Source: Trigonopsis variabilis
Lineage: Eukaryota; Ascomycota; Trigonopsidomycetes; Trigonopsidales; Trigonopsidaceae
Direction: 5' to 3'
NCBI GenBank assembly: GCA_003707065.3
Contig: PPXM03000007.1
Span: 558,001-622,000, forward strand
DNA length: 64,000 bases
The notes below the pieces were generated by a model. The model had not been told where the DNA came from, searched no databases, and saw only the letters and a list, made by a program, of their open reading frames with translations. The translations under genes and the position numbers were made by a program. This document shows positions 7,194-64,000 of the stretch, piece by piece (positions within the stretch are counted from its first letter, which is position 1; each line of letters begins with the position of its first letter).

Positions 7194-7380
7194 GTCTATT
7201 TTGGTATAGATATCCTCAATTGAGCATCCATGATCTATTTTTGTGATCTTTTTCCTAGGCTTTCCTTTGTCTGTACCATGCGTCTCAGAGTGTACATCTT
7301 TTAGACCCTTATCAGTTGGCGGCGCCGGTTGCTGTACCCTTCCCACCGAAAAGTTTGACTGCTCCGCTACTGTGCCAGCA

Positions 7381-35147: not shown

Positions 35148-36707
35148 ATGTCGCATTTCCTATATTCACAGCTGGAACCAATGACTTTGGAAAACGAGAA
35201 CTCGAGATCGACTGAAAAAAAGCAATTGATCATCAATGCGTTTGAAATGTTCGTCCCGAGCCACATTGCGGCCGGTGCATGGAGACAAGAAAATAGTGAA
35301 GTTACTCAGAAATGGTCTGTCAAATACTGGACTAAACTCGCAAAACTTCTCGATGAAGGCGGAGTGACTGGCTTGTTCATTGCCGATTCTTTTGGTGGCT
35401 ACACTGGTTGGAAACACTCGCTTGATGAATGTGTTCGGACTGGTACCCAGTATCCTATTGGAGACCCTTTCACTATCGTTAGTGCCATGGCTGCTGTCAC
35501 CGAGTCTCTTTCATTTGGAATCACTGGATCTACAACATTTGAAAGCCCGTATGTGCTGGCGAAAAGATTAAGCACGCTTGATCACGTTACAGACGGCCGA
35601 GTTGGATGGAATATTGTGACTAGCTGGAAGAGTGCTGCTGCTAAAGCCATTGGTCTAGACCAATTGCCAGAACATGATGAACGTTATCGTGCTGCAGATG
35701 AATATCTCGATGTAGTCACCAAACTTTGGGAAGGCTCTTGGGCAGATGACTCAGTGGTGTTGGATAAAGAAACCGATACTTTTGCAAATACATCGAGAGT
35801 GAGAACTATTCATCATCATGGAAAGTACTTCAAGGTGGACGCTCCTCATATTCTTCACCCTTCTCCTCAACGAACTCCACTTCTTTATCAAGCAGGCCTG
35901 AGTTCGGCCGGAACATCGTTTGCTGCCAAGTGGGCCGAAGCAATTTTTGTCTCTGCACCCACTCCTCATATCCTGGCTCCTCAAGTGAAGGCGATTCGTG
36001 AGAAGGCCGCCAAAGAAGGTCGTGATCCACGATCAGTTAAGATCGTCACTGTCATTGTACCTATCATCGGTCGAACTGATGAGGAAGCTAGAAAAAAATA
36101 TGAACGATATGAAAAGGCGGCATCCACAGTAGGTGGCCTCGTCTTGTTCTCTGGCTGGACGGGTATCGACCTCAGCGACTTCAGCTTGGACGACGAAATT
36201 ACTGCTGATCAGACCAGCCAGACTCAAATTCAAGGCATGTTAAACAACTTAAGAGCTACCGACCCCACTGTCAAGAAATGGACTCCGAGACTTGTGGCAA
36301 AATTGTATAAGACCGGTACACCTCAACCAATCGGTAGTCCTCAGACTGTGGCTGATGAGCTTCAACGATGGGTTGATATTGCTGATGTAGACGGCTTTAA
36401 TATTGCCTACGTGTCTTCTCCAGAGTCTTTCCAAGATGTCGTCGACCTCCTCATTCCAGAGCTGCGAAAACGAGGCATCTTCCCGCAATCAAGGCCTGTG
36501 CCTGGTGGAGGCACTGCTCGGGAGAGCTTATATGGAAAGGGCCAACGACATCTTCGTGATGACCACTTCGGCAGTCGATATCGCTATGATAATTACGGGA
36601 AACTCTTCCCTTCAGAGAGTCTTCACGAAGAAGGTCTACGCATTGCTAAAGAACTGGGTCTTACCAATAAGCTTGAGCGAGAATTGGAAGCAGAACAGGG
36701 AAAATGA
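35148..36707 (+). CDS. NtaA/SnaA/DszA-family FMN-dependent monooxygenase (luciferase-like)
   Basis: Complete, intronless, 519 residues. The family oxidises small substrates such as nitrilotriacetate, sulfur heterocycles or sulfonates with reduced FMN from a separate reductase. Landmarks: the start of the barrel (INAFEMFVPSHIAAGAWRQ), GLFIADSFGGYTG, FGITGSTTFESPYVLAKRLS followed by TLDHVTDGRVGWNIVTSW, the RYRAADEYLDVVTKLWEGSW helix, and HHHGKYFKVDAPHILHPSPQ with RTPLLYQAG. These match the NtaA branch rather than bacterial luciferase proper. Fungal members are often linked to sulfur or nitrogen scavenging. It is followed by a Zn2Cys6 regulator and a DAL5-family permease, a typical enzyme-regulator-transporter triplet. 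Bacterial ancestry of this fungal family is possible but not tested here. Confidence 0.9.
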   Translation: MSHFLYSQLEPMTLENENSRSTEKKQLIINAFEMFVPSHIAAGAWRQENSEVTQKWSVKYWTKLAKLLDEGGVTGLFIADSFGGYTGWKHSLDECVRTGTQYPIGDPFTIVSAMAAVTESLSFGITGSTTFESPYVLAKRLSTLDHVTDGRVGWNIVTSWKSAAAKAIGLDQLPEHDERYRAADEYLDVVTKLWEGSWADDSVVLDKETDTFANTSRVRTIHHHGKYFKVDAPHILHPSPQRTPLLYQAGLSSAGTSFAAKWAEAIFVSAPTPHILAPQVKAIREKAAKEGRDPRSVKIVTVIVPIIGRTDEEARKKYERYEKAASTVGGLVLFSGWTGIDLSDFSLDDEITADQTSQTQIQGMLNNLRATDPTVKKWTPRLVAKLYKTGTPQPIGSPQTVADELQRWVDIADVDGFNIAYVSSPESFQDVVDLLIPELRKRGIFPQSRPVPGGGTARESLYGKGQRHLRDDHFGSRYRYDNYGKLFPSESLHEEGLRIAKELGLTNKLERELEAEQGK

Positions 36708-41301: not shown

Positions 41302-42564
41302 ATGAAAAAAGATTCTACAATTATTATTGTCGGAGGAGGTACTTTTGGAACCTCAACTGCTTATCATTTGGCAGCTAATGGGTATAACAATATCACAGTA
41401 CTTGACCGTTCTCCCTTCCCCTGTGATGACAGCGCCGGGAATGACATTAATAAGATCCTTAGAACTGACTACTCAAATACTATATACACGAAACTTGCCT
41501 TGGAGGCTATGAAAGAATGGACTTCTCCGGATTTACAAGATCTATATCATCAGACTGGTTGGATTATAGGAGCTCATGAGAAAACGAAGCTTTATCTGGA
41601 AGCATCAAGAGAGAATAACATTGCCCTCAGTGCAGATCCCGGTGAAGTGCTTACTCGTGACGAAGTGCGAGCCAGGTGGCCTGGTCTATCTGGAGATATG
41701 CCAGGTTGGACGATAGTATTCAACAAAAATGCTGGGTGGCTTGAGGCTGCGGTTGCGCAGAAAAGATTAGCAGACAAGGCTCTCGCGTTGGGAGTGAAAT
41801 CGTTTTCAGGAGACCAGGGCACCGTTACGTGTCTTCTGTACGACCAAAGCTTCAACTGCATTGGAGTTCGTACTGCAGATGGAAAAGCTATATTTGCTGA
41901 TGCGATAATTGTCGCTGCGGGAGCAAACTCGGCTTCTTTAGTCGACCTTGGCGGCCATCTCACAGCCAAGGGTCACTGTGTTGGCTTCGTTCAATTGACC
42001 GCCGAAGAGGCTGAAAAATATAGGAATCAGCCGATTATCGATGATCTTGAACAGGGTATTATATTTCCGCCTAATAAGGACAACATTGTTAAAGTTGCAT
42101 CAGTCAGGTTTCTGCATAATATCTCCCGCTCTCCAATTGCCGGAGTATCCTTGCCTAGATATAGAAGAGAATATTCGCAGGACATAATTCCTCCTGCTGT
42201 TGAATTTGAGATAAGAGAGTTTGCTCGAGAAATCATGCCGGAAATAGCAGATCGTCCATGGTTCGAAAAGAAGGTCTGTTGGGATGGTGACACTGCTGAC
42301 TTCAACTTTTTCATCTGCCCTTACCCAAACAGACAAGGTCTGTTCCTGGCTACTGGAGGATCGGCTCATGGATTCAAGTTCCTGCCAATTGTTGGAAAAT
42401 ACGTTACGCAAATGCTTGAGAACAGTCTTTCAAATGATTTGAAGAGTATATGGCAGTACAAAGGTTCTGATTACATCTATCCTAAATATGATAAGCCACT
42501 GGCACATCCAGTGCCTACACGAGACTTTGACGACTTTTTTGGATGGAGAAAGTCTCATCTATAA
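41302..42564 (+). CDS. Fructosyl-amine oxidase / sarcosine-oxidase family flavoprotein
   Basis: Complete, intronless, 420 residues. The N-terminal FAD site is IIIVGGGTFGTSTAYHLA with acidic LDR at the end of strand 2. SAGNDINKILRTDYS after it is typical of fungal amadoriases and related enzymes. KKVCWDGDTADFNFFI carries the cysteine that usually binds FAD covalently, and ATGGSAHGFKFLPIVGKYV closes the FAD domain. These enzymes oxidise fructosyl amino acids, saccharopine or N-methyl amino acids with release of hydrogen peroxide. The protein ends in Ser-His-Leu, a PTS1-like tripeptide, consistent with a peroxisomal oxidase. Substrate choice between amadori products and sarcosine or pipecolate cannot be decided here. 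It is divergent from the DAL5-family permease. Confidence 0.88.
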   Translation: MKKDSTIIIVGGGTFGTSTAYHLAANGYNNITVLDRSPFPCDDSAGNDINKILRTDYSNTIYTKLALEAMKEWTSPDLQDLYHQTGWIIGAHEKTKLYLEASRENNIALSADPGEVLTRDEVRARWPGLSGDMPGWTIVFNKNAGWLEAAVAQKRLADKALALGVKSFSGDQGTVTCLLYDQSFNCIGVRTADGKAIFADAIIVAAGANSASLVDLGGHLTAKGHCVGFVQLTAEEAEKYRNQPIIDDLEQGIIFPPNKDNIVKVASVRFLHNISRSPIAGVSLPRYRREYSQDIIPPAVEFEIREFAREIMPEIADRPWFEKKVCWDGDTADFNFFICPYPNRQGLFLATGGSAHGFKFLPIVGKYVTQMLENSLSNDLKSIWQYKGSDYIYPKYDKPLAHPVPTRDFDDFFGWRKSHL

Positions 42565-43638: not shown

Positions 43639-45783
43639 TCAGGTTTTTTCTGTTGTTTCAATAGTCTCATAAATGGCCCCATCATTCTCATCAGTCTCGT
43701 TTGAGAGATTGATTCCATCGAAACTCATTCTTTTCTTCTTACCGAGCAGGAAAAGGAAGAACATAGCCAGAGTTTTACGACCCTGGATAATCGGAAGAAG
43801 TGTAATTACCGACCCAGCAAAAAAAGCCCAAAGGAAGGCCACTACAATCCAACCCGTAAAGAATCCTTTTGAAAATATGTAATTGGAACCGTAGAGAGGG
43901 AGTGGGAACAGAACAAGGTAGAAGAGGACAAAAAAAGCACTGATACCGATTCCAATGTTCCTAGCACGTTTCATATGTTTATCTTCCGCAGCTTCTTTTG
44001 CAAGCTGACTCTGTGTATTTTCCTCAGCACTGCTGATATTCTTAACATTATGGGCAATATCGTAGACAGAATCATCCACCTGCTTGATAGACTTGAAATT
44101 TTCAAAATCAAAGTTGTCTGGTCTTAAGAATGTGATGATAGGCACGAATAATAGAGGAATGCCAATAGCACTAATATTACCGGCTGCCAGAGCTTCATTG
44201 GTGGACAATGTTGTCAAGTTAACAGGGCCGCCCGACTGATTATGAGCATAGCCAATCCAGATTCCAAGAGCAGCACAGGTACTTAAAGTGGTACCAAAAA
44301 TAAAAGCCCACTTTGATTGCTTTTTCCAAAAGAGAGTACATGCCATAGGAACTATACAAACGTCAACGACGATACCGGAAACTGTGGTGATAAAAGAAAC
44401 ATCAAAGCCAGCGTGAGCCAAGCCAATGCCAAGACCTATAGTGAAAACTGCGAAACCGATGACTGAAGCATGCCCAAACCAGACCAGTCTTTTTCCATCA
44501 GCGTTGGGGTTGATATAACTCTTGTAGATATCATAAGTCATCAAGGCGGAGACAGCCACCGTCTCGGACGAAAACGCAGCTGTGACCGCCATAAAAATGA
44601 TCGTAAGGATGGCTCCTGCCCCTCCTTTGCCCATTAGAGTGTAGGCACCAAATGGCATTACCAAACCGGCTCCCACCTCTTCAGTACTCATTCGATTGGG
44701 ATAGGTTGGAAAGACAGATAAATGTTCCAATCCAGCTGTCGCGAGACCCAAGGTTGTAGCTAGACAAAATGGGATGGTGAACCAACATATTCCACCGAGG
44801 ACGTAGCCTCCTAGAGCAGACGCGGGGTTGGCTGCGATTGCCTTCTGGAACAGCTGTGAATCGACCGATGCAGCCCATCCTGCGCCGAAAAGGACTAAAC
44901 CGAAAAGCCCTCCTTGATGAGAAGTCATGGTTGTATATGAGCCTTTATGATTTCCAGCAATCGGGTGCATCTCCGCGGCGACTTGAAGTAACTCCCACAG
45001 TTTACCGGGCGATCCAAGGACGTCACTTGTCGCATAAGCAACGAAAAGAAACATCAACATGATGACATAAATGATTACTGTATGCGTCCAATCAGTCAGA
45101 ATGGTTGCCTTAATACCTCCCATGAGTGTGTAGGCTGTAACACCGATCGGAAAAAGAACGATAGCAGCATCCCTATTCATCCCAGTAAGAGCAGAAAAGA
45201 TTGAACTGCCATTAATAAGGAGATTTGCCGAATAGGTGATTTGTTGAATCAAACTGTACGCGCACATGAGAAGATGAGTGGTCTTGCCGTAGCGTACTTT
45301 GACGACTTCCTGAAACGTATGGGCATTAGGAGCCAGTCTTTTGAGCTCGATTGCAGCAGTTGCAAATAAGATGATTTGAACACAGGCACCTGCACCATAC
45401 CACCATGGACCACTTAGAATGATTAGTATTGTGGAACAAGAAGAACAAACCTAACCCCCCACCAGTAGGCGGACGTCGAGGAGAGCAGTAAAGTTGATCC
45501 AATTGTCCAAGAGGAGACGACAGCCTATACTGTGAGTCTCATCTTTTTAACGTAGATCTTACCGACGCAATCAGTCCGGTGTTGATACTCCTTTTTGCGG
45601 TCATCATCATCTCTGAGTCTTGAACCTTGAAATCAGCTTTTTTTCTCTGTATATCTTTACCTCTGCCTTGTACTTGGATAAGAACCAGGATGTAAAAGCC
45701 ATGATTACAGCAAAAGCGGCTCCGACGCCCACGACTATTCCATAGCCGACTCCTTGAGAGAACAAGGGAAGTGTGGTCGTCAT
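43639..45783 (-). CDS. DUR3: DUR3-type urea/polyamine transporter, paralogue 2
   Basis: Four exons, 45661-45783, 45563-45625, 45451-45524 and 43639-45412, with introns of 35, 38 and 38 nt, give 677 residues. The joined N-terminus runs SQGVGYGIVVGVGAAFAVIM, then VQDSEMMMTAKRSINTGLIA, SAVVSSWTIGSTLL and GVSGPWWYGAGACVQIILF. The last splice uses a GTTTGT donor and a TACTAAT branch. Later blocks match Dur3: APNAHTFQEVVKVRYGKTTH, GGIKATILTDWTHTVIIYVI, YATSDVLGSPGKLWELL, MGKGGAGAILTIIFMAVTAA and PLPLYGSNYIFSKGFFTGW. It is closer to the canonical Dur3 pattern than paralogue 1. It diverges from lamA, which suggests its cargo may be urea or, as speculation, a lactam or omega-amino acid. Confidence 0.92.
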
Positions 45784-46963: not shown

Positions 46964-49900
46964 ATGACCGACATTAAAACCTTAAGGAGAGTTCTAATCG
47001 CCAATCGTGGTGAAATTGCTTGCCGGATCATAAAAACATGTAAAGAGGTAATTCCTCCTGTGGCTTATTGTCTAATAAATTAGAATGGGATAAAAACTAT
47101 TGCAATCTACTCAATGGATGATTCAGATTCTAATCATGTGTATGAGGCTGATGAATCTATCCTTCTCGAGGGCTCAGGATCTTCACCTTACTTGGACATT
47201 ACGGCCATCTTAGAGGCTGCTGAATCTACGAGAGCACAGGCTGTCATTCCTGGCTATGGTAAGCAGCAGTATGTGGATCAGAAGGCTAATACAATCTTAA
47301 AGGGTTCTTGAGCGAAAACTCTGAGTTTGCGGAAGCCCTTGCGAAACGGAATATCATATTCGTAGGACCTTCTCCCAGCTCTGTTGAATCTTTTGGCTTG
47401 AAGCACTACGCTCGTGATTTAGCTTGCAAATCAAAGGTAATAATTATGACACGAAGAAGATTCAAGCTAATTATAAAGGTGCCAGTTGTTCCAGGAACAG
47501 ATCTGATCACTGATTTACAAACTGCCACTATTGCTGCCGAGGATATTGGATACCCGGTTATGCTAAAGGCAACTGCTGGTGGTGGAGGGATGGGTCTGAA
47601 AGTATGTCGTTCCTCTGCAGAGCTAGAGGTCAACCTCAAACAAGTGAGAAGCCGAGGTACGACTCTTTTTAAAAATGATGGTGTCTTTATAGAGAAATAT
47701 ATTGAGAGAGGTCGTCACGTCGAAGTCCAGGTATTTGGAAATGGGCTGGGAAATGTTGTCGCTTTCGGTGAAAGAGAGTGTTCTGTTCAACGACGACACC
47801 AGAAAGTTGTGGAAGAAACTCCTAGTCCTTTCATAGCCCTTCCCCATTATGCAAATCGGGCTTTGAGGGAGGCACTATGTAATTGCGCTGTCAGTCTTAC
47901 ATCTTCCATCAAATATAAATCAGCCGGGACGGTTGAATTTCTTGTGGATGATGACAACGGATCATTCTACTTTCTCGAAGTAAATACCAGACTCCAAGTT
48001 GAGCATGGTATTACAGAGCTATGCTATGGAATTGATCTTGTATACCTTATGCTTCTTCAAGCTGATTACGAGCTCCAGGGCAAAGAAGGTATTCCTGAAA
48101 AAGTACTATCTTCCTTTATTGCCCCCAGGTTGGGTGCCGATGGGCTTCTTAATCCAGTTGGCCATTCAATTGAAGTCAGAGTCTACGCTGAAAATCCTGT
48201 AAAAGACTTTGCACCTTCTCCTGGTATTTTACACCATGTCTCCTTCCCTCGAACTGTAGCGGATCCTAAAGCAATAGTAAGAATTGATCACTGGATTGGT
48301 GATGGTACCAAGGTTTCTCCTTACTTCGATCCTCTTTTGGCTAAAGTAATGGTTTGGGCAGATGACAGGGAGAGAGCCTGTCAAGCCATGATAGAGGTCT
48401 TGGAGAACACTGAATTACAAGGGCCACCGACTAATCTTGATTATCTTCTCCAAATTATCAAGTCCCCTCAGTTCTTCAAAGGAGATACTCTTACAAACTT
48501 TTTGAGCTTGAACTTCGGCTATACCCCTAATGTTATTGAGTTTGTGGCCCCTGGAGCATATACCACTGTTCAAGACTTGCCTGGCCGCCCTACTTATAAT
48601 GGCGGCATTCCTTTAGGAGGTCCCATGGATCGTGTCTCCTTTTCTGTTGCTAATGTTCTTGTTGGAAATCCCAAAGATACAGAGGCCCTTGAGATAACAT
48701 TTTCAGGTCCAACGCTACGTTTTTTCACTTCTGCTACGATAGCTCTATGTGGTGGGGATTTCACTTTTACAATGAATGGAGAGCCAGCTGCTCGCTGGGC
48801 TGCAATTACCATACCAGAAGGATCCTTAGTTGTGATTGGATCTAGCCAGACAACTGGCTGTAGAGCTTATTTAGCAGTCAAAGGTGGTTTTCCTGGAGTT
48901 GCTAGGTATTTAGGTTCAAAGAGTTGCATCCCAACTCTGAAGCTTGGAGGCCACCAAGGAAGAACATTTTTACCTGGTGATTGTTTGGACATTGTACCCT
49001 CGACTGATAAGGTCCTAGATATCCATACTATATACGAGCTTCCTTCTGTTTGTGTCCCTCAATTTGAAAAAGATGATGGAATTTGGACCGTCAGAGTTAT
49101 TCCAGGACCTCACGATACACCAGACATTCTTTCAGACAAAGGGGTCGACATTATTTATGATAGCATTTGGAAAGTGAACCACCAGTCGAACAGAGGCGCC
49201 TTACGTCTCGATGGTCCCAAACCAGACTTCTCTCGGCCTTCAGGGAAGGATGGGGGAAGGCATCCCTCGAATATCCTTGAATATGGGTACCCAACATGTG
49301 GTCTAAGTTTCACGGGAGATAGTACAGTGCTCTTTGCTGTTGACGGTGCCACATTATCTGGATTTGTGTGCGTTGCCACTGCCATTGAAGCCGATTGGTG
49401 GAAATTTGGCCAAGCTAAGCCAGGGGATTCTATTCGCTTTCTGCAGACATCATGGGCAGAGGCCGTTGAAGCTCAAAAGAAACAGGATGAGTTCATAACC
49501 TCTCTTGGATGTCTTCCTTCAAACAAGGGTACAATTCCATTTGACAATTTTATCCAACAATCGTTTGGTTCTCGAAGAAGCAGTCTACTTTACTCTAGAA
49601 GAGAGACAGATACGCTTCCTTATGTGGAGTTTAGACAAGCTGGTGAGCGAATGATCGTGATTGATTTCGGGGTTGAAACGTTTGACATAGCCAAATGTGG
49701 ACGACAGTTTTATCTTTCACAGGAAATAGCCGCAATCAAATCTCAGAGGGTGAAAGACGCAATCATCCGCGTCGAGTCTACGAGCGGATCCGTTGTTATT
49801 GTGTTTGATCCTCTATTGGCTACGCAAGAGGAAGTACTGCAATCGCTTGTTACTCTTGAGTCCTCTATTCCTCCTACTAATCAACTCACGATTCCATCTC

Positions 49901-50905
49901 GGCTCTTCAAGTTTCCAATCGCGTTTAAACATTCAGCACTGGATGCTTGTATACAACGCTATACGAAATCGCAGCGCCCTTATGCTGCTTATTTACCAGA
50001 TAATACCAAATTTTTGATGGAAGCGAGTGCTTTAGGTAGCTTTGATGACTTCAAGCACTGCGTTTTTGGCAGCGCTCATGTTGTCATAGCCGTTTCCTTT
50101 CTATGCGCCCTTCCGATATTTGTTCAAGTAGACCCCCGTCTCAGATTCATGTGCCCAAAATATAATCCTGCGAGATCTTTTACACCAGCTGGTGGTATAG
50201 GCACGGGCAGCGTAGGACAAAGTATTTACTCAGTTGATTCACCAGGCGGTTATATGATGTGGGGAATGACTTTGCCTGATTCGTGCTGGGATACATTTGG
50301 CCAAAGAGATGGATTCTCTCCCGACAAGCCTTGGCTTTTCAACCTTTTTGACCAAATCCAGTTCTATGAAGTTGATGAGCCAACTCTTACTGAGGTAAGT
50401 TTAGAGAGTTTAGCTTTCTAACAAAAAGATGAACCAGAAGCTACTGAACAGAAAACTCATACTCTCCTTCGAGGATACTTCTTTTGATATCGGTGCTTAC
50501 ATTGATCTTACCGAAAAGTACAAAGACCAGATTACTGCTCATAAGATGAAACAGATTGAAGCCAATAATAAGCTGATGGCAGAGGAAGTGAAACTATTAA
50601 AACAATGGGAGGAAGAAAAAGCAAACGCAAAAGGGCCAGTCAGAGACGCTATTGATACATACATGACAGACCCTCAGGTGACAAAGATTCTGTCATCTAT
50701 GAATGCCAGTGTTTGGAAGATTACCGGTTCAAAGGGTGATACTGTCAAGGCAGATCATGTTGTCGTCATTTTAGAGGCAATGAAAATGGAAGTGCCTGTA
50801 CGAGTACCTTCGACTTCCAATCCAATGAAAATATTAGAGATAGTCGCCGAAGAGGGTGATGTTGTCTCTGCAGGAGACGTACTGATGTTCTTGGGTCCTG
50901 TTTAA
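46964..50905 (+). CDS. lamA: LamA-type biotin carboxylase / carboxyltransferase (urea-carboxylase-like, no allophanate hydrolase)
   Basis: Five exons, 46964-47047, 47084-47258, 47303-47436, 47479-50394 and 50429-50905, with introns of 36, 44, 42 and 34 nt, give 1,261 residues. The order is biotin carboxylase (VLIANRGEIACRIIKTC, GYGFLSEN, KATAGGGGMGLKV, EVNTRLQVEH), then CT_A_B (KipA/AHS2-like: PGAYTTVQDLPGRPTYNGG), CT_C_D (KipI/AHS1-like: NPARSFTPAGGIGTGSVGQ) and a biotinyl domain with Lys1222 in EAMKM. The third intron is in frame without a stop and would go unnoticed; removing it restores KSKVPVVPGT. The amidase half of S. cerevisiae Dur1,2 is absent. Together with the adjacent lamB this fits the A. 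nidulans lamA/lamB lactam-utilisation locus better than plain urea carboxylase, which remains the main alternative. BC catalytic Glu, Asn and Arg look present; QVEHG replaces the usual QVEHP. Confidence 0.88.
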
Positions 50906-51096
50906 GCTTTCTACTTCAACTTAAGATGAATATGCAGAACGTACTTTGAAAATATTGAGTACCGATTCAGGAATTTCAGTGGCTGGTAAGCTTCTGTCTC
51001 TATGCTTAAAAAGACATTACGCTAAATCCTTCTCAAAATCACAGTAGCTACGCGATATTTCGAACTTAGAATCCATTGATATTTATTGTAGTAGAG

Positions 51097-51923
51097 CTAG
51101 AAAGTATTCTTTGCATCGATAATACCTTTTAAAATGGTTGCCTTCTCTACAGCCCCAGGCAGATCACTGTGAACACATACAGTGAATGATGTGGTCTTCA
51201 AGCCGAGAGGAATCTTCTTCCCATTGACAGAAGTAATACAGTCATTTTCAATCATGTCCTCAAGTGCCTTTGGAACGTTGTCTAGGGCTTGGCCTCCATA
51301 TTTGCTTTGATTAGTAATAGTCAGTGCTTTTTCAAACTCACGCCAGAGACATAAGAGCTCCTTCATCGTCATAGAGAACGTCCGGAAATACTTCGGGAAT
51401 GAGTTCAATATTATATTTATTGGCATATTTCTCATGAAAGGTGCCTTTAAGGCCATAAAGAGGAACGTTAAATTCTGCAATGGCCGACATCACGGCGTCG
51501 CAGTACTCCTCATTCTTAGCCATATCATTATACAAACTTCCATGCGGCTTGACATGATTGAGCTTCATTCCTTGGCTATTAAGAATAGCAACTAAGGCTC
51601 CGATTTGATACAACACAGCAGCCCTAAGCGCTTCTCCACTCATATCTAAAGTACGACGTCCGAATCCATCCCTGTCAGGATACGATGGATGAGCACCAAC
51701 AGAAACGTTATATTTCTTAGCCAAAGCAACTGTCTTTGCCATGATTGTAGGGTCAGAGGCATGAAATCCACAAGCCACATTAGCCGACTTAATCAACGGC
51801 ATCAGTTCATCATCCGGGCCCTAATATTAATAATGTTCTTTCAAGTAAAAAAGAACGGCTTACAAGTTTCCAATGGCCATAGCCTTCTCCCATGTCGCAG
51901 TTAAGTGTTATCACTCTGGCCAT
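51097..51923 (-). CDS. lamB: LamB/YcsF-family protein (lactam utilisation; PxpA homologue)
   Basis: Three exons, 51864-51923, 51342-51820 and 51097-51304, with introns of 43 and 37 nt, give 248 residues, near the bacterial length (about 250). The N-terminus MARVITLNCDMGEGYGHW continues across the splice as KLGPDDELMPLIKSANVACG and FHASDP, the core of the family. GAHPSYPDRDGFGRR, LNHVKPHGSLYNDMA and EVFPDVLYDDEGALM follow. LamB of A. nidulans is needed for 2-pyrrolidinone use, and bacterial PxpA is one part of the PxpABC 5-oxoprolinase. PxpB and PxpC are homologous to the CT domains found in the neighbouring LamA. It is convergent with lamA (191 bp between the stops), whereas in A. nidulans the pair is divergent. 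Confidence 0.93.
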
Positions 51924-54900: not shown

Positions 54901-57016
54901 TGGTGATGAGTTTTGCGTAAAAAGCAAAAAAAGGTATCAAAGATGCCTGTGAGCTCCGATCATATGCTTTTGATTGGGCTTTGAGTATATAGCTTCCGTT
55001 TTAGTCAAGAATATAGAAGAACGCATAATTGAATATTAGCTATTCAAGCAGAAGAACTACGCTAGTTAAATTTATAGAAGAGGCACTTGATCCATTGAGA
55101 AGTCGTCTGTCACGTGTCTTCCTGAAAGGATTGTGAGTCTGCAAAGTGATCGGAGGAGCCGTCATCTTTAAGCACTCAGGATTTTTGTGGACCCCATGAA
55201 TCGTGAGGTATTGCCAAGAAGAAAGATCTAATGATTGATAGTCTGAAAAGGAATATTGTGAGAAGGTGTATTGCCTCAGGAGGTATACAATCAGGTGATA
55301 TTGTTCAATTGTCGAATAATTGAAGAAGTTAAAGCATTAGGAAAATATTATATTTAATACTATAACTTAATTTTATTAAGCGCTCCGAGGCGAGAGTAGC
55401 TGCGTTAAAGAGCATCTGTACATACCTGTGTTGCAAAGCTAGGAGGGGGCCCTTTCCACGTAGGCGCCGCGGCTCTCTGGTAGGAAGTGGTGTGTTACGG
55501 CACGTGACTCAGCTAGCGTGGTGGGTAAACATACCACTTGATCGCTCCATCCTCGCCGTTGGTCTGCAATAGCATGAGTTCGCATTTGACTAGTCAAAAC
55601 GACAGAGAATGAGAACATAAATCCGTATAGCATTAAATAACGCAGCAAGACAGTATTAGGCATTTCCGACAGCCCAATATGTTTCAGAAAAGCCTTATTT
55701 TTTCAAGCTGAATCAATTCGGGCGACAGATCTATGAAAGCACACCTCTTCCAAAATGCCAAAACCATCACCCTGCCCCAGGGAAAGCTACAGTTAGGTAT
55801 TTGTCTACTGTATTATATCAATGTTTTGCAAAGTGTGGGAAGCATGAGATTGTGTGAAAACAACCTAAACCACATCATGAGGGCAAGCGTACGTTTGGAA
55901 TTAGGTTACAGGAGCACACGAATCTTGAGGGAAATCCATCATGCCTTTGTCAGCATGAAAATTTCATAAAATAGCTCAACTATGGAAAATCTGTCCAGCC
56001 GCACCTCCCAGACACAGTGAGTTCAAGCTCAAAGAGACTGGAGGTCTTTCTGCGATAGTAGGCGTCGGAGCTACGGAAATCACGGAAAGCTTGTTTTGAT
56101 CTTCAATATCACATTTTCAGGTAATTCATCTGGCTGTTTTGGAGTCTGATCAGTTGTCAAGCGCATTTTAATTATGAGAACTGCGCGACGTCTCACTGCT
56201 TCGTAACAACAACTTGTCAACATTAACTCATGTGAGCAACAAGATGTTTTATCTGTTGTTTTCTAGTAAGCACCCTTACGGGCAATTCAATCCTAGATGG
56301 GAAAATTCATATTGCTGCCTCTTTTCACGATATGACGTTTTGGCCCGTCTCACTTTGTGACTAGTGATGAGAATACTTTGTTGACTGTTTGCTCTTGACA
56401 AGAAAAATTACTCAATTGGGTCAAGGAACACCACATCAGTAATATATTTCAGACATTTTTAGGTTTACAGCTGCGGAGCAGTTTTATTATTTATTCTCCA
56501 CTTTGTCAGTACTTGACCGAGGCCACGCAAGCAATTCAAATCATCAAGGACCTCAGGCCAATTCGTTTTATGTTTGTTGTTACTCAGTGCATTTAGTCGA
56601 AGAAGATTGCGATGTCTATGGGACCAATGGCCAATGTGGCATGATATGGGGACCTGGCTGTAAATTCTTGGATGTAACCGTAGGAGGCAGGAAAACAAAT
56701 ACAAATGAGAACACCAAGGCCAGCGACAAAAGACAATTCATACGAGAAAGGCATTCCCGAATTACCGGTAACCTAAATCTCTTTGTCGTGCGGCTCGTCT
56801 TACTCTTTTGGGAAGTCGGTCCCCAAAAAACTTCCGGAAATAGGCCCCCAGAGAACCAAAAAATGAATTGAAGATCCTAAATTGGCGAAATGCCCCAAAC
56901 AGAAGAACGATTGAGTGATTGTTGTACCGAAAAGTCAATATCACTCACTGCCCAGCCATCGTACTATATAGTCCTGCACCGGCTATACATCTCTTCTCAT
57001 CCTCCAACTGCTCATC
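51924..57016. other. 5.1-kb region without a supported gene
   Basis: No frame here has a recognisable domain, good start context and sensible splicing. Short frames noted: 52574-52768 (+), 54272-54604 (+, cysteine-rich), 54809-55000 (-, a 63-codon hydrophobic stretch with charged tail but no start), 55733-55972 (+) and 56503-56874 (+). The DNA alternates between AT-rich blocks and a GC-richer patch at 52600-52780. CACGTG occurs near 55107 and 55500. It may hold decayed genes, untranslated RNAs or long regulatory sequence for lamB and the wall-protein gene. A TATA-like CTATATAG lies near 56973 upstream of the latter. Confidence 0.45.
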
Positions 57017-58663
57017 ATGTTTTCTAATGGACTCTCGCTTGCTACAATTGTTGCTTTTGCTGGGCTCGCTCAGGCAGCTTTACCATTTCCTGGGACAAGC
57101 GCTTTCAATGTCTCTGGAGTATTTGACTACACAATTGGTCCATCTAGTAATGTATATATTTACCCTTATTATGGTGTTCAGCCATCGTTTAGGTACCTTG
57201 TCCTTTCTCCGGATCCCAATCTTGATACGAGCACAAATATAGCCCAAGGGCAGCTCTATTCGTTTTATTACGAGGACAGCGAGAACTCCGAAGTGCAAAC
57301 ATGTTCAGATAGCGCGTGTTCTTTGACTGACGGCTACTGGGTTTTTGACACTGCAACAGGCTTGCTTGAGGTGAATGCAGCGCAACCTGATGGCTCAGCT
57401 TCGATCACAAAAAGAGCCAACACAAATTATATAGCATACGACGGTTCTATTGGTCTTACGATTTGTTATCTTGCTCGGTACAATGTATATGTTCCCGCGA
57501 TTGAGGGAACCAGTTGTACTGCATTATGGGGAGCTGCCTATACTAACGATGACTTGCCTAATATTTTTGTTGAATATTATACTACCCCCGTTTCATCTTC
57601 TTTTGCTTCCTCTAGCACTCCTGCTTCTTCTAGTACTGTTGCCTCGTCCAGTGCTCTCGTCTCGTCTAGTGCTGTTGCCTCGTCCAGTGCTGTTGTTTCG
57701 TCTAGTGCTGTTGCCTCGTCCAGTGCTGTTGTTTCGTCTAGTGCTGCTGTTTCGTCTAGTGCTGTTGTTTCGTCTAGTGCTGCTGTATCGTCTAGTGCTG
57801 CTGTATCATCTAGTGCTGTTGCTTCATCTAGTACTGTGGTTTCATCTAACGCTGTCGTTTCGTCTAGCGGCCTTCCTTCTTCAAGTGCTATCGTCTCGTC
57901 TAATGCTGCTGTCTCCTCCAGTGCTGGTCTCTTTTCTAGTCCTGCATCATCTAGAGTTGCTACTTCCTCTAGTGCTGCTGTTTCATCAAGTAGTGCTCTC
58001 TTCTCTAGCGTCTTCGCTTCATCCAGCGTCGCTACTTCATCTAGTGCTCTTTCTTTCTCCGGTGCCCCTTCATCAAGCGCTACACTCTCCAGCAATGGGT
58101 TCTCCCTTAGCACAGGCGGTTCAGTTGTCTCGTCTTCTTCAGCTCTTTCCTCCGTTCATTCCAACTCCACTGAAGTTCTCAGCACTGGTTCACCCACGGA
58201 AACCGTTATATCTGGTTCTACTTACACAGTTCCTTGTGAAGAATGTGAGACCGCAACTGCTCTTCCTTCAGGATATACTGTGACTGTCGTTAATGGAGTT
58301 ACCGTGACAGTTCCTTGCTCAACTGTCGAGACAGCCGTTCCTTCAGGATATACTGTGACTGTCGTTAATGGAATAACAGTAACAATTCCTTGCTCAACTG
58401 CCGCTATTAGCACTGGTGCCATCACTACTTCTCCTTCCGGTGAGGAAGGAGCTAAAGGTTCAACTGCTACTCATACTGCTGCCAATGAGGCCAGTGCGAC
58501 TGTCAACTCTGGACTTGGCGCTGCTGCCTCAGGAACAACTCTTAGCCAGCCTAAGGAGACGTCGACATCTTCTACTGAATCTGGCGAATACTTAGGTTCA
58601 GCTTCTCGAAGTTCTGTTTCTTTGTTATCCTTAGCGATTCTCCCATTGCTCGCTTTCTTTTGA
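57017..58663 (+). CDS. GPI-anchored serine-rich cell-wall protein
   Basis: Complete, intronless, 548 residues. Residues 1-20 (MFSNGLSLATIVAFAGLAQA) form a secretion signal. Residues 21-195 form a globular, Tyr-rich domain with four cysteines (96, 101, 150, 167) and a possible Kex2-type Lys-Arg at 132-133. Residues 197-304 are 18 tandem six-residue units of the ASSSAV/VSSSAV type, followed by more irregular Ser-rich sequence. Residues 417-466 hold two 25-residue repeats with PSGYTVTVVNG and a conserved Cys. The C-terminus ends in a hydrophobic stretch (SVSLLSLAILPLLAFF) after small residues, a GPI signal. The protein is expected to be heavily O-mannosylated and wall-linked, possibly an adhesin. 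The N-terminal domain is not one I can name. Confidence 0.88.
   Translation: MFSNGLSLATIVAFAGLAQAALPFPGTSAFNVSGVFDYTIGPSSNVYIYPYYGVQPSFRYLVLSPDPNLDTSTNIAQGQLYSFYYEDSENSEVQTCSDSACSLTDGYWVFDTATGLLEVNAAQPDGSASITKRANTNYIAYDGSIGLTICYLARYNVYVPAIEGTSCTALWGAAYTNDDLPNIFVEYYTTPVSSSFASSSTPASSSTVASSSALVSSSAVASSSAVVSSSAVASSSAVVSSSAAVSSSAVVSSSAAVSSSAAVSSSAVASSSTVVSSNAVVSSSGLPSSSAIVSSNAAVSSSAGLFSSPASSRVATSSSAAVSSSSALFSSVFASSSVATSSSALSFSGAPSSSATLSSNGFSLSTGGSVVSSSSALSSVHSNSTEVLSTGSPTETVISGSTYTVPCEECETATALPSGYTVTVVNGVTVTVPCSTVETAVPSGYTVTVVNGITVTIPCSTAAISTGAITTSPSGEEGAKGSTATHTAANEASATVNSGLGAAASGTTLSQPKETSTSSTESGEYLGSASRSSVSLLSLAILPLLAFF
57605..57928 (+). repeat. Coding minisatellite, 18-bp units (18 copies)
   Basis: About 18 head-to-tail units of 18 bp encoding (A/V)SSSAV variants. 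The copies between 57640 and 57830 are nearly identical and the outer ones are diverged, as expected for slippage or unequal exchange. Long antisense and out-of-frame open frames here are by-products of the repeat. Confidence 0.95.
58265..58414 (+). repeat. Two 75-bp direct repeats in the wall-protein gene
   Basis: Units start at 58265 and 58340. The first 33 bp are identical, and both encode PSGYTVTVVNG then TVT(V/I)PCST. This is a recent in-frame duplication adding one cysteine per unit. Confidence 0.9.
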
Positions 58664-60150
58664 GTATCGCCTTAGACTCTAATCATACGGCTCTCTTTTC
58701 GTATCTACTTTAATGAATTGAATTCTTGTTATTTAAAGAAACTTCGCCCGCAAGTCTAAATTCTTGCATGATTGAAGTGCTATGACTATATTTTGAGGAT
58801 TTTTCACAAGTTGCGCTTTTTAATATTTATGCTAATTAAAGGCAATCTCTGAGCTTTTCTCTAGTTGACTCTGAATTCTAGATAACCACCCGCAAGGGGC
58901 TTTTTTTTTTACTAGTGCGAGTGTGTGCCCATCTAGCTGGTCTCGCACAATATTATTGTGATTCAGCCTGGTATCGCTTTTTTTTTATCTGTCCTATTCG
59001 GTAATAATAGTATAAAGGGAGCTTAGGGTTTCCTGTCGTAAACTCTGTCACTTTTCGCTAGTGCAATCAATCTCACAACAAGAAGAGTACTATTGTTACC
59101 ACGCGCTGTCGGTTCAAAAGCTTCAACCGTAACAGGATCAAGACTAACGGCAATAGTCGCTAAAATATATGAAGCAAAGACTATGGGCCAAATCTGAAAC
59201 GATTAAGTATACGTAAATCAGATTATATCCATAAGAGGATATGAGGATAAGACGGTGGGCAGCCCTTGCAAGTGCGTTAAATGGCAGAGTTTGGATTGTT
59301 CAGGAAGTGTGAAGACAAGAATAGTTCAGTCACGCTTGTCAAATACTATAACTAATACTGCGTGCTTCTTAAATATAACGTGTTTACAGCGATATTTATC
59401 GATTTACTTGAACTTCGTTCCGCTCATCCCCGCTGTGCGTTGCCTAGTTCTAACAGACTAGAAGTCAGATCGCAATTGAGGGTATATCGTAACCTACTCG
59501 ATCAATGACTGAGGACACCGGTTTCAAGCCTCTGTCTACGTAGCCCTTATAATAAGAATTAATACTAGCACTTGATAAATTAGCTTTTATTGACCTGAAT
59601 ACCATCTTGTTCCACCGTCGGAACTATCCGGGCAGGCATCCGGTAAAAGTCATCTCATTGGGCACTGCAAATCCACAGCAACGGTGCGGATAGGAGTACG
59701 AGCGCGCCATTTAGCCTGTCTAATTCTAGAAAGGTGCCTTTAGGGAAAAGAGCCGCAAGGCTGAGATCTAAGCACGCCATAAACAATGGGGAGCAGACGC
59801 GGCACGTGTCCCACATGTGCCGCTTCTGGCAGCGCTGTTCGGTAGAATTACCAAATCGAGATTAGAAGAAATGCTGAATATTAGGGTAAACTTCATTGGA
59901 ATAACATTCAGTCAGAAAAACTATTTATAAGGCAACGAGAGGCAATACATGCATTTCTGTAAACGTTTCAGAGCAGACATTCAGAAGTAGGGGCTCAGGG
60001 CAGGCCAAGAAAGGGGGATCGTAGATATAGTGACGTAGAAATATGCGTACCCTATCAGAAAACCTATCTATCTGATAGGAAGAAAGCTTAGCCTCACATG
60101 ACCAAGCCGTAAACGTGTTTCCCCGGCTTTACTGGCAATGCTTCCATTAT
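58664..60150. other. 1.5-kb intergenic region between wall-protein and CFA synthase genes
   Basis: It contains two T-runs of 9-10 bases (near 58903 and 58979) each after a possible hairpin, a near-perfect 25-bp dyad at 59799-59823, and a TATTTATAAGG TATA element near 59930 upstream of the CFA gene. No supported protein gene or tRNA. Confidence 0.5.
59799..59823. promoter_or_regulatory. 25-bp inverted repeat containing CACGTG, upstream of CFA synthase
   Basis: Arms of 11 bases (GCGGCACGTGT and ACATGTGCCGC) match at 10 of 11 positions around a 3-bp spacer. It lies about 330 bp before the CFA start and 110 bp before a TATA-like element. A dimeric bHLH or zinc-cluster site is likely. Confidence 0.4.
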
Positions 60151-61440
60151 ATGTTTTCACAGCAGAGACAGCTAGATAGCTTGTTGGATCAGTTGGCTGT
60201 TCCAAGCGCTGTCATTCTACCTGACAAGCGACGACTGGGATGTGCAGAGGAGGATGCTCATGTGGTGGTTCGTATCCACAAGTACAAAGTTCTCGCTGAT
60301 ATCGCCTTCGGTAACATTGGTAGCATCGCTGGTGACTATGTTGAAGGTGAAGTCGATATCGATGGTAATATGAGGGATTTGATGCGCGTTGGTGCATCTC
60401 TTCTTCAGGTCACGGCCAACGATCCAGTCGGTGAGTCTCCTTCATGGATTACGAGGCTCGTTATACGATTTGGGATATTCAATTGCCTGAGATATGTCTA
60501 TTCTTGGTATAATCACTCCATCCTTCGTGGCACTAGACATGTTCAGTTTCATTATGATATCTCGGACGATTTTTTCTCCCTCTGGCTGGATCCTAAAAAA
60601 TTATACTCTTGTGCGTATTTCTTCAAGAAAGAATATTCTCTAGCTCAAGCACAAAACGCAAAGCTGGATTTGATCTGCCGTAAGCTTCTCCTCAAGCCCG
60701 GCGAACACTTTCTCGACGTTGGCGCCGGCTGGGGAGCACTGATAATGTGGGCAGCCGAAAAATACAAGGTCTTTGCTACGGGTATAACTGTATCCAAGTC
60801 TCAATTCAAGCACATGACTAATTTAATCGAAGAAAAGGGCCTACAGGGTCGCGTCGAGGTCTTTTTATGTGACTATCGCGAGCTTGGTGACAGAAGATAT
60901 GATAAGATTGCCTCCGTCGGCATGTTTGAGCACGTCGGTTTAGCTATGATGGATATTTATTTCAGCACTTTATACTCACTTCTAAAGCCAGGCGGTATGC
61001 TTCTGAATCATGGCATCACGAGCTCAAAACTCACCAACGAGTCACTAGGGGCCAATATGGGGTCATTTATTGACAAATATATATTTCCAGGGGGTGAACT
61101 TATTCATCTCTCTCTTGCTCTCAGGTTTATGGCCGAATGTGGTTTTGAGGTGGTCGATGTGGAGGATCTCCGTCCTCATTATGGCAGAACTCTGTGGGAG
61201 TGGTCGGATCGTCTGGAAAATAATTTAGAAAAAGCACGTGAAATGGTCGGAGATAAGGTCCTTCGTGCTTATAGAGTGTATCTGGCTGGCTGTGCGTTGG
61301 GTTTTGAGGAAAGGTGGATTTATCTTTACCAAATACTGGCGACGAGGCCTAATGGAAATCTCGAGACAGGAGAAAAAACTACTGGTCTGAGAGGATGTCA
61401 GTCTCAATATCCATTTAATAGAGTATATATCTACTCTTGA
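60151..61440 (+). CDS. Cyclopropane-fatty-acyl-phospholipid synthase, bacterial type
   Basis: Intronless, 429 residues from the ATG of MFSQQRQLDS; an in-frame GTG at 60115 was not used. It transfers a methylene from S-adenosylmethionine to a double bond of a phospholipid acyl chain. The N-terminal CFA domain has VVVRIHKYKVLADIAFGNIG and GDYVEGEVDIDGNMRDLM. The catalytic half has the HYDISDDFFSLWLD and YSCAYF signatures, the SAM motif HFLDVGAGWGAL (usually VGCGWG), GMFEHVG and NHGI. There are no transmembrane segments, as in E. coli Cfa, and the length is about 45 residues greater. Lack of introns in an intron-rich neighbourhood and closeness to bacterial Cfa motifs suggest horizontal origin, though fungal CFA enzymes are known in several lineages. 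Confidence 0.92.
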   Translation: MFSQQRQLDSLLDQLAVPSAVILPDKRRLGCAEEDAHVVVRIHKYKVLADIAFGNIGSIAGDYVEGEVDIDGNMRDLMRVGASLLQVTANDPVGESPSWITRLVIRFGIFNCLRYVYSWYNHSILRGTRHVQFHYDISDDFFSLWLDPKKLYSCAYFFKKEYSLAQAQNAKLDLICRKLLLKPGEHFLDVGAGWGALIMWAAEKYKVFATGITVSKSQFKHMTNLIEEKGLQGRVEVFLCDYRELGDRRYDKIASVGMFEHVGLAMMDIYFSTLYSLLKPGGMLLNHGITSSKLTNESLGANMGSFIDKYIFPGGELIHLSLALRFMAECGFEVVDVEDLRPHYGRTLWEWSDRLENNLEKAREMVGDKVLRAYRVYLAGCALGFEERWIYLYQILATRPNGNLETGEKTTGLRGCQSQYPFNRVYIYS

Positions 61441-62402: not shown

Positions 62403-64000
62403 CTATAAATCTCGTCGGCCTTCTGGATAATCTGTATCAGAATCGACTTCTTGCTGGAACCCGGACTGCCTGCGTCGTGAAACCCAGCTTGAAAGACCCC
62501 GAAAGACGGTCAACAAGACAAAGCGTCCATCATAGATGGGGAAAATTAGTACAGCCCAGAGAGTGAAGAATTGCCAGATAATCCCAACAGTGACCCATCC
62601 CGAAAAGAACGATTTTGTGAAAATGTAATCTCTATAGAGAGGCATAGGGAAGGCAACAAACGTCACTAAGACAATAAACACTGTAAAGTAAAGTGCAATG
62701 CGAAGATACTTACGCATCTCGTATACCTGCTCATCGGTGTATGGAAGCTTGACTTCTATGGAGCTTGGAGTAAGACCTAGATAGGAAAGAAGTCTGTATT
62801 TGCGGCTAGAGGGTCCAGGCTGAGCTTCGGTATCTGAATCTGCATATCTTCCCTCGGCGACGGTACTTATAACAACATCCTCCTTCTTCTCAATGTCATG
62901 TTCCTCTTCGATCTCGCCATGCTCACTTTCAATCGCATGATCAGCAGGCCTGGGAGCCAAAAGATGGCCAAAATGATGATGGTGTTCCTTTTCCTTGGCA
63001 ACCTGAATGTCAATGTCGGTGGGATCGCCGTTAAAAGGATTCTTATTCTCATCATCAAGTAATTTAATGTCCAGAAATGTATTCCAATCGAAATCATCGG
63101 GTTTGACTAGGCTAATAATGACAGAAAACAGGAATGGACATCCTAAAGCAGCTATGGCGGCATAGAGACCAGGAAGAGTTGATGATAAGGAAGTCAGGCT
63201 AAGCTCTTTTTCGAACTTGTATGTGGTGCCAAGCCAAGTAGCCAGAGAAGCTCCAAAGCCGAGCAAGGGAGATAATATAGCAGCAATTTTCGACTGTCGA
63301 CGCCAAAAGATAGTTAAGATTAGGGGAGCCACTCCGGGACAGATAAGGACTCCAGAAAGGGAAACCATGAAGTTGAAATCTGCTCCGCCATAATTAAGAG
63401 CTAAGGTAAAACCGATAATGAATGCCCCATAGAGCAAAACGCCAAGATGGGTTATTATCATGGCCTTGCGATCAGATATATCAGGCTCAATATAAGTTCG
63501 CCAAACATCAAAAGACAGAATACTGCTAACAGCGATAAGCGACGATGAAATGGTACTTGTCGATGTCATGAAAACTAAAACCACAAAAGACAAGACCCCA
63601 GTATCTCCTAACACGGCTTTAAGAACGTAAGGCATTACTAGAGTTCTGTTGAGAACGTTCGTAGTGACACCATCTGTGGGAAAAAAAGGAGTATGTTCCA
63701 ATTTGACAGCCGAAAACCCCAGCACTGTGCCAAGGGCCCAAGGAACAGAGAAAATTGCAACAGAAGCTAAAAGGTACCCAGGAACGGTGGAACTTGTGTT
63801 TGAAGCAAAGGATTTTTGCCAAAAGGCGGTATCCATGATGGAAAGACCAATATTGCTGAAACGAATCAAAAGACACCAAATCATGGCATTTTTGGATTTA
63901 AAAGTCAGTAGTGAGTTTTTATAATTACCGGGAATGGCTCGCAGACCGTCAACGGCCTGAATACTATCATAGAGATTACCCAAGCCGCCTACTTTTGAGG
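62403..64000 (-). CDS. DUR3: DUR3-type transporter, paralogue 3 (5' end beyond the window)
   Basis: The frame is open from the right edge to a stop at 62403, giving 532 visible residues; the N-terminal part lies outside. SSS/Dur3 landmarks: SKVGGLGNLYDSI at the edge, FWQKSFASNTSSTVPGYLLA, VLGDTGVLSFVVLVFMTSTS, TISSSLIAVSSILSFDVWRT, VKPDDFDWNTFLDIKLLDDE and PMPLYRDYIFTKSFFSGW. It is the most divergent of the three. Where the others have a short loop before the last two helices, it carries about 100 extra hydrophilic residues with a His run (KEKEHHHHFGHLL) and acidic clusters (HGEIEEEHDIEKKED). Substrate may differ from urea. No intron was seen in the visible part. Confidence 0.88.
   Translation of the reverse strand, partial: SKVGGLGNLYDSIQAVDGLRAIPGNYKNSLLTFKSKNAMIWCLLIRFSNIGLSIMDTAFWQKSFASNTSSTVPGYLLASVAIFSVPWALGTVLGFSAVKLEHTPFFPTDGVTTNVLNRTLVMPYVLKAVLGDTGVLSFVVLVFMTSTSTISSSLIAVSSILSFDVWRTYIEPDISDRKAMIITHLGVLLYGAFIIGFTLALNYGGADFNFMVSLSGVLICPGVAPLILTIFWRRQSKIAAILSPLLGFGASLATWLGTTYKFEKELSLTSLSSTLPGLYAAIAALGCPFLFSVIISLVKPDDFDWNTFLDIKLLDDENKNPFNGDPTDIDIQVAKEKEHHHHFGHLLAPRPADHAIESEHGEIEEEHDIEKKEDVVISTVAEGRYADSDTEAQPGPSSRKYRLLSYLGLTPSSIEVKLPYTDEQVYEMRKYLRIALYFTVFIVLVTFVAFPMPLYRDYIFTKSFFSGWVTVGIIWQFFTLWAVLIFPIYDGRFVLLTVFRGLSSWVSRRRQSGFQQEVDSDTDYPEGRRDL

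Follow-up and report, generated by a model that had tools for sequence, protein, structure and literature searches.

In Aspergillus nidulans, lamA and lamB are named as lactam-catabolic genes that share the regulator AmdR with amdS, gatA and gabA and are thereby grouped with genes for the use of γ-aminobutyrate (GABA) and other omega-amino acids (PMC8016842). Stand-alone fungal carboxylases, which are separate from urea amidolyase, were named urea carboxylases even in species for which the survey found no such amidase, and its Table 2 lists a carboxylase without amidase for A. nidulans, A. fumigatus, A. terreus and C. neoformans, the A. nidulans protein having 1,241 residues (PMC3073912). Several lineages of Trichoderma carry LamB and a predicted urea carboxylase in a single segment, for which the authors leave a role in urea use open (PMC8675399). 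Here, we analyse a stretch of 64,000 nucleotides from Trigonopsis variabilis (assembly GCA_003707065.3, contig PPXM03000007.1, positions 558,001 to 622,000; hereafter the window), in which a fused biotin carboxylase, LamA, lies next to a LamB/YcsF-type protein, LamB. To our knowledge, LamA/LamB is a genetic unit without known chemistry, and in the open-licence literature, a scope outside which the 1989 lamA/lamB and 2017 PxpABC papers fall, we found no biotin mechanism for LamA/LamB or PxpA. Comparison of sequences, domains and gene neighbourhoods indicates that the pair most likely serves to open lactams, not to act on urea.

Exon models placed the pair at 46964-51923 and gave a carboxylase of 1,261 residues, both as in the initial annotation of the window. 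LamA comprises five exons on the plus strand (46964-47047, 47084-47258, 47303-47436, 47479-50394 and 50429-50905), and its introns of 36, 44, 42 and 34 nt are bounded by GT and AG in every case. LamB is encoded by three exons on the minus strand (51923-51864, 51820-51342 and 51304-51097); the two genes are convergent, tail to tail, with 191 bp between their 3' ends. The LamA gene is real and its reading frames are intact. A Pfam scan of the protein yielded Biotin_carb_N, CPSase_L_D2, Biotin_carb_C, CT_A_B (250 bits), CT_C_D (49 bits) and Biotin_lipoyl domains and no Amidase domain, in agreement with the combination of biotin carboxylase (BC), two carboxyltransferase (CT) and biotinyl domains without allophanate hydrolase that had been read from the sequence at the outset. 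The order BC, CT_A_B, CT_C_D and biotinyl domain in a single chain is the layout of urea carboxylases. Both BC motifs, QRRHQK and FLEVNTRLQVEH, are kept, and so is the biotin attachment site EAMKME with Lys1222 (Table 1). An identity of LamA as urea amidolyase was rejected, as the amidase is missing and the signature residues are absent. The AlphaFold model of the part encoded by exon 4 (972 residues) had a mean predicted local distance difference test score of 61, with values below 50 from residue 858 onward, and was thus poor in the part of interest.

Two positions of the CT domains, numbered after the Kluyveromyces lactis enzyme, have been linked to the substrate. Asp at 1584 is described as required in guanidine carboxylases and Asp at 1330 as separating guanidine from urea carboxylases (PMC11410670, 2024 Nature), and for urea carboxylase a review gives Asn at 1330 (PMC12186494). 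Our alignment confirmed this numbering, with Asn1330, Asp1584 and Lys1605 in K. lactis urea carboxylase. In a set of 100 bacterial fused carboxylases, almost all of the guanidine type (99/100), position 1584 was Asp throughout and position 1330 was Asp in 99 and Asn in one. LamA carries Ser741 at 1330, and Asp was absent from 1584 in 12 of 12 realignments, so that it has neither the residues of a urea carboxylase (Asp1584, Asn1330) nor those of a guanidine carboxylase (Asp at both sites). The site was occupied by Phe in the eight realignments that included PxpB rows and by Ser in the four with urea- and guanidine-type rows only; the Ser seen in the first alignment is Ser1004, and a larger alignment of fused proteins had a gap. 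That LamA is a guanidine carboxylase, as the guanidine-type Asp in 99 of 100 bacterial homologues might suggest, is extremely improbable in view of Ser at 1330 and the missing Asp at 1584, and in the approximately unbiased (AU) test its grouping with 14 guanidine-type rows gave a worse fit (p 0.027).

Further residues of CT_C_D resemble PxpB. When aligned with PxpB proteins, LamA shows the PxpB-type Phe together with a one-residue deletion, which occur in 34/34 PxpB rows (33 loci, since L093 and L177 are the same locus; L numbers denote bacterial loci), in none of 17 fused carboxylases and not in K. lactis. The Pro that precedes Lys1605 in LamA is present in 32/34 PxpB rows and again in 0/17 fused carboxylases. 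At the Arg of the GRT motif LamA has Met, the 17 fused carboxylases all have Arg, and the 15 rows from L160-type operons, bacterial five-gene loci treated below, have Ile or Val; in the remaining PxpB groups this Arg is found in 9/13 and 1/6 rows. Lys1605 is common to LamA, the fused carboxylases and the L160-type operons, and is replaced by Arg in 19/19 rows of two other PxpB groups, including loci with a BC gene. The L160-type rows are thus like LamA in the Phe with its one-residue deletion at 1584, in Pro-Lys at 1605 and in lacking the GRT Arg (15/15 each). By these alignments, LamA is a relative of urea carboxylases with a PxpB-like CT_C_D site, a residue signature that, as a predicted feature of LamA, is new here.

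The homology of LamB to PxpA, also proposed initially, was borne out by 279 bits against PF03746 (LamB_YcsF, cut-off 22) and by retention of 37/37 columns in which 43 bacterial PxpA proteins show a conservation of at least 93%. LamB scored above two PxpA subfamily cut-offs (255 vs 226 and 245 vs 213) and below the PxpA equivalog cut-offs (221 vs 392, 196 vs 337 and 170 vs 378). The relationship of the CT domains to PxpC and PxpB was confirmed by YbgK/YbgJ-type PDB chains, and LamA reached 126 bits against the PxpC equivalog, for which the cut-off is 500. These subfamily scores, and the opening of 5-oxoproline by PxpABC (PMC13274462), raise the question whether the pair is a 5-oxoprolinase that converts 5-oxoproline to glutamate by the same chemistry. 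This would be a sub-case of lactam opening, and its probability overlaps with that of the wider reading. We consider it doubtful, because the PxpA and PxpC equivalog cut-offs are missed, AmdR is described as controlling the A. nidulans lam genes along with omega-amino-acid genes (PMC8016842), the GABA transaminase and succinate-semialdehyde dehydrogenase (SSADH) of the L160 locus fit GABA rather than glutamate, and eukaryotes are described as having a different 5-oxoprolinase (PMC13274462). The initial annotation had named 2-pyrrolidinone or 5-oxoproline as substrate; the lactam class is favoured, and of the two 2-pyrrolidinone is the more probable.

In the LamB tree, window LamB groups with L126, L127 and L153, all with a BC gene, and with the orphan L154 (support 93/94). 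L123 is labelled as lacking BC in this tree and in the CT_A_B tree despite a nearby BC gene, and is treated as having BC in the locus counts. The L154 protein (7001-7720 of that locus), from Aureimonas sp. AU20, is the closest to window LamB among the 43 aligned (44.6% identity); its gene adjoins a xanthine-dehydrogenase-type gene and an aminotransferase, and no PxpB/PxpC or BC is annotated within 7 kb.

Bacterial loci were compared from both sides of the pair. LamB was found in the locus of none of the 100 fused carboxylases (both flanks were at least 5 kb in 80, and the result is less firm for the other 20), and an allophanate hydrolase was present in 73, so that the fungal pairing of LamA with LamB is distinctive in this sample, though the Trichoderma segment shows that other fungi have it too. 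Conversely, 41 PxpA loci were collected, 11 from 12 genomes chosen for a fused carboxylase and 30 from 120 evenly drawn genomes, one phylum. A BC gene lay within 5 kb in 14 of them, and a biotin-attachment motif was near 13 of those 14. The annotated order in L153 is LamB, biotin carboxyl carrier protein (BCCP), BC, PxpB and PxpC. In L160, on a plasmid of Agrobacterium sp. T29, five genes are followed by a GABA transaminase that scores above its family cut-offs and an SSADH above the TIGR01780 cut-off, an order that fits a route from a lactam via GABA to succinate. Searching with L160 PxpC gave matches of 55-77% identity in 16 of 398 genomes, after which identity dropped to at most 42%, many of these lower matches lying in frames of more than 1,100 residues, the size of fused carboxylases; a second search for the subfamily yielded 16 of 289 genomes, two of them already seen. 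All of pxpA, BCCP, BC, pxpB and pxpC were present in 30 of the 34 loci of this subfamily, and an allophanate hydrolase in 0/34. Selection by similarity of PxpC gave 30 loci from genomes, of which 26 are complete; the other four complete loci are on plasmids, and for two of them, L192 and L193, the operon was already visible when they were chosen. Gene presence, not order, was scored for L178-L191. Of the four incomplete loci, L165 and L178 have their operon truncated at the end of a contig, and L170 and L171 are without BC and BCCP. Between them, the domains of LamA and LamB supply the PxpA, BC, BCCP, PxpB and PxpC functions, as in the operons of this subfamily.

Intermediate arrangements were seen as well. 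In the bacterial PxpA loci L102, L103, L104 and L107, PxpB and PxpC matches fall into one open reading frame and BC with the biotin motif into another, which suggests partial fusions towards a LamA-like layout; in L100, a BC-biotin frame is present and PxpB and PxpC are separate. PDB entry 9yx5 contains a biotin-dependent acyl-CoA carboxylase alpha3 subunit, which we take to be mycobacterial AccA3, alongside chains named allophanate hydrolase subunits 1 and 2. According to this chain list, the same solved entry combines a biotin-carboxylase subunit with subunits of the PxpB/PxpC type.

Because the urea and guanidine residues are missing, the LamB partner keeps 37/37 PxpA columns and bacterial loci combine the same five functions, we favour lactam opening: LamA and LamB probably form a two-protein, ATP- and biotin-dependent enzyme, most likely acting on 2-pyrrolidinone. 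The gene pair, its intactness, its domains, the missing signature residues and the bacterial five-gene loci were computed, and from them we infer every chemical step of the following proposal. As the conserved motifs suggest, BC would charge the biotin on Lys1222 with bicarbonate in an ATP-driven reaction, and the CT domains would move the carboxyl group onto a small lactam, likeliest onto the ring nitrogen of 2-pyrrolidinone, with 5-oxoproline or another cyclic amide as possible alternatives. LamB would then hydrolyse the carboxylated, activated ring, and the N-carboxy amino acid produced would lose CO2 to give GABA (or glutamate). The initial annotation called such a mechanism not established for fungi. 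This holds for the mechanism only, which is new here, since A. nidulans genetics has already tied lamA/lamB to the use of lactams (PMC8016842). A carboxylated lactim was one of three options considered for caprolactamase, which is said not to be similar to PxpABC (PMC8453981).

By descent, LamA belongs on the urea-carboxylase side, just outside the urea carboxylases. In the CT_A_B tree (63 rows, 24 of them randomly chosen fused bacterial proteins), LamA fell with urea and guanidine carboxylases and branched before all those sampled, including the yeast enzyme (99/89). A concatenated tree of both CT halves (53 rows) had LamA as the sister of all urea and guanidine carboxylases in the sample (99/95). 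Its rows were hand-selected among the fetched loci and included 17 fused, 15 L160-type, 6 fused-CT and 13 other loci; L125, one of these 13 rows labelled as lacking BC, does have a BC gene. The urea type was represented by three bacterial loci and K. lactis, and very long branches (L099, L128 and L129) and several other rows were omitted. With the root set by hand on other PxpB/PxpC genes, the L160-type pxp operon branches off first and LamA next, followed by the urea and guanidine carboxylases together. The phylogeny of the CT domains that the initial annotation proposed as a check against urea carboxylases and PxpB/PxpC therefore separates LamA from the sampled urea carboxylases, but a topology that unites it with the urea type was not rejected in an AU test (p 0.149). 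Direct descent from the L160-type operon class was rejected (p 0.0003).

This placement bears on the alternative that LamA is a urea carboxylase making allophanate, with a separate hydrolase elsewhere in the genome and LamB as a chance neighbour. TIGR02712 (urea_carbox) is the best curated family of LamA and K. lactis urea amidolyase its best solved relative (3va7, 5i8i), with CT_A_B and CT_C_D aligning throughout; the AU test leaves urea-type grouping standing, and related green-algal enzymes have amidase genes nearby (PMC3073912). However, LamA scores 1226.2 bits against TIGR02712, below the cut-off of 1303.85, whereas the bacterial urea carboxylase control L081 reaches 1971.6 bits. Both signature residues are gone, no allophanate hydrolase was present among the 25 window proteins scanned, LamB is adjacent here and in Trichoderma (PMC8675399), and four fungi listed in Table 2 of PMC3073912 have the carboxylase without the amidase. 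Taken together, we regard a urea carboxylase as unlikely, more so than a 5-oxoprolinase. The initial preference for lactam over urea is thus upheld in part, by the missing residues, LamB and the bacterial five-gene loci, but not by overall relatedness, as LamA is nearer to urea carboxylases than to PxpB/PxpC.

Several observations weigh against lactam opening. LamA forms a long branch in the CT trees, urea-type grouping survived the AU test and grouping with L160-type operons did not, and its CT halves score higher on the urea/guanidine model than on the L160-type operon model (304.5 vs 173.3 and 188.2 vs 64.7 bits). Whether Phe or Ser stands at 1584 depends on the row set, although the absence of Asp does not, and Ser at 1330 differs from the Gln of 34/34 PxpC-type rows. 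A LamB gene was found elsewhere in 8 of 12 tested genomes that hold a fused carboxylase. On average, window LamB is no more identical to PxpA from loci with BC than to PxpA from loci without it (0.377 vs 0.377, p 0.68), and overall identity was rejected as evidence. Also rejected was the idea of GABA transaminase and SSADH as general neighbours of loci with BC: they were not enriched near such loci (a hit to either in 2/16 with BC vs 3/29 without), and in the 34 loci of the L160 subfamily SSADH occurred in four and GABA transaminase in three, both being strong only in L160, the source of the query, which leaves L160 as one example. SSADH was also strong in L185 and L192, the latter having SSADH and carbonic anhydrase farther along. 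The transporter gene beside LamA is of the sodium/solute symporter family, which includes urea transporters. In the literature, PxpB/PxpC is assumed to phosphorylate 5-oxoproline, not to carboxylate it (PMC13274462). Green-algal urea carboxylases cluster with the fungal ones and have an amidase gene nearby in three of four cases, and in Table 2 of the same survey both carboxylase and amidase are given for two Dothideomycetes, and a urea amidolyase in addition to the carboxylase for three Hypocreales (PMC3073912); with these entries, the pattern of carboxylase without amidase is not universal.

The CT_C_D domain is the most diverged part of LamA and counts on the same side. It differs at 112/171 columns conserved among 79 bacterial proteins, compared with 66/233 in BC, and of 158 conserved CT_C_D columns LamA retains 56 and K. 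lactis urea carboxylase 86, so that loss of residues there is less surprising than it would be in BC. A decaying CT_C_D in an inactive LamA would produce such figures. We judge this very unlikely, since the reading frames are intact with consistent short introns, the BC motifs are retained together with Lys1222 and the CT Lys that matches K. lactis 1605, and LamB keeps 37/37 conserved columns.

If carboxylation were the mechanism of LamA/LamB, it would bear on unfused bacterial PxpA-BC systems and on the origin of urea and guanidine carboxylases. From the tree order, the latter enzymes would descend from lactam-opening ancestors. We regard as evenly balanced the wider proposition that stand-alone fungal 'urea carboxylases' without Asp1584 are misnamed and are single-chain lactam N-carboxylases working with LamB, and that urea and guanidine enzymes arose from lactam-opening ancestors by losing PxpA and gaining Asp1584 and Asn or Asp at 1330. 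The residue signature combined with LamB adjacency offers a simple test of substrate class. Set beside the order of the tree and the five-gene loci of bacteria, the signature makes the LamA/LamB mechanism directly testable.

Compared with the systems described so far, the window pair resembles A. nidulans lamA/lamB in that a fused carboxylase lacking an amidase adjoins a protein of the LamB/YcsF family, the A. nidulans side being taken from the literature. Presumably the A. nidulans pair is divergently transcribed, whereas the window genes are convergent, and we take the A. nidulans 'urea carboxylase' of 1,241 residues to be LamA. The conserved Trichoderma segment also contains carboxylase and LamB, but its neighbours are an NADPH dehydrogenase, a major facilitator superfamily transporter and a Cys2His2 factor (PMC8675399). 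The bacterial five-gene loci (L153, L160, L192, L193 and others) have the five functions of LamA/LamB, but as five separate proteins, and the LamA CT domains are not nested among the L160-type. With urea carboxylase and urea amidolyase (K. lactis), to whose clade LamA is sister, it shares the domain order in one chain, but it lacks allophanate hydrolase, Asn1330, Asp1584 and the GRT Arg and has LamB adjacent. With PxpABC the pair has in common the PxpA-type LamB and the PxpC- and PxpB-like CT domains; unlike PxpABC, LamA includes BC and biotin domains within its single chain, and its PxpC score is below the cut-off.

Table 1. Positions of the LamA/LamB pair, of selected codons and of other genes in the window.
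Feature	Position	Strand	Basis
LamA, 1,261-residue fused biotin carboxylase	46964..50905	+	five-exon gene model, Pfam, TIGR02712
Ser741 codon, selectivity site for urea (Asn) or guanidine (Asp), K. lactis 1330	49306..49308	+	alignments
Phe1005 codon, at or next to the K. lactis Asp1584 site	50098..50100	+	alignments
Lys1222 codon, biotin attachment site in EAMKME	50783..50785	+	position from codon arithmetic
LamB, 248-residue LamB/YcsF (PxpA-type) protein	51097..51923	-	three-exon gene model, PF03746
Sodium/solute symporter-family transporter	43639..45783	-	PF00474, 75.6 bits; TIGR00813, 163.7 bits (cut-off 184)
Eukaryotic GABA transaminase	11415..12893	-	TIGR00699, 724 vs 567 bits
Symporter-family gene	16059..17492	-	TIGR00813, below cut-off; no Pfam model matched
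General amidase	19033..20298	+	PF01425
Fungal_trans-type regulator	21022..22586	+	Pfam match in first part of split frame only
Luciferase-like monooxygenase	35091..36707	+	PF00296, 159 bits
FAD-dependent amine/sarcosine oxidase-like gene	41302..42564	+	PF01266
Ser/Ala/Val-rich repeat protein	56972..58663	+	no Pfam match; by eye
Cyclopropane-synthase-type methyltransferase	60079..61440	+	PF02353, 308 bits
Symporter-family gene, runs off the window end	62403..63998	-	

The transporter gene next to LamA, which the initial annotation of the pair leaves unmentioned, diverges from it, with a predicted start (ATG proposed at 45783) 1,180 bp upstream of LamA. Both of its scores in Table 1 were obtained on the 3' exon, as the 5' introns were not fully modelled. 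It may belong to the LamA/LamB system and, more speculatively, import its substrate. It is one of three symporter-family genes in the window, all of which we assume to be Dur3-like and which share 28-36% pairwise identity over their aligned parts. GATA-type motifs in the interval between transporter and LamA (9 in 1,180 bp compared with 4.7 per kb across the window) were rejected as evidence in view of this background density. The FAD-dependent oxidase-like gene adjoins the same transporter.

Apart from the absence of an allophanate hydrolase fused to LamA, none was found in a Pfam scan of 25 window proteins, which are a subset of its open reading frames. The sole amidase among them scored 49.6 bits against the allophanate hydrolase model TIGR02713 (cut-off 511) and is presumably AmdS-like; the gene behind it, for the Fungal_trans-type regulator, has a frame divided into two parts. 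Zn2Cys6 and Fungal_trans regulators are both encoded in the window and, with the short GT..AG introns and the eukaryotic type of its GABA transaminase, mark it as fungal DNA; no tRNA genes were found in it. A GABA transaminase, the enzyme for GABA derived from 2-pyrrolidinone, lies about 34 kb from LamA, possibly by chance, and was not used as evidence. The luciferase-like monooxygenase gene stands amid genes for transporters and a Zn2Cys6 regulator, in a region with many nutrient-use genes. On the other side of LamB, the window encodes the repeat protein, by eye of a secreted cell-wall type, and the cyclopropane-synthase-type methyltransferase.

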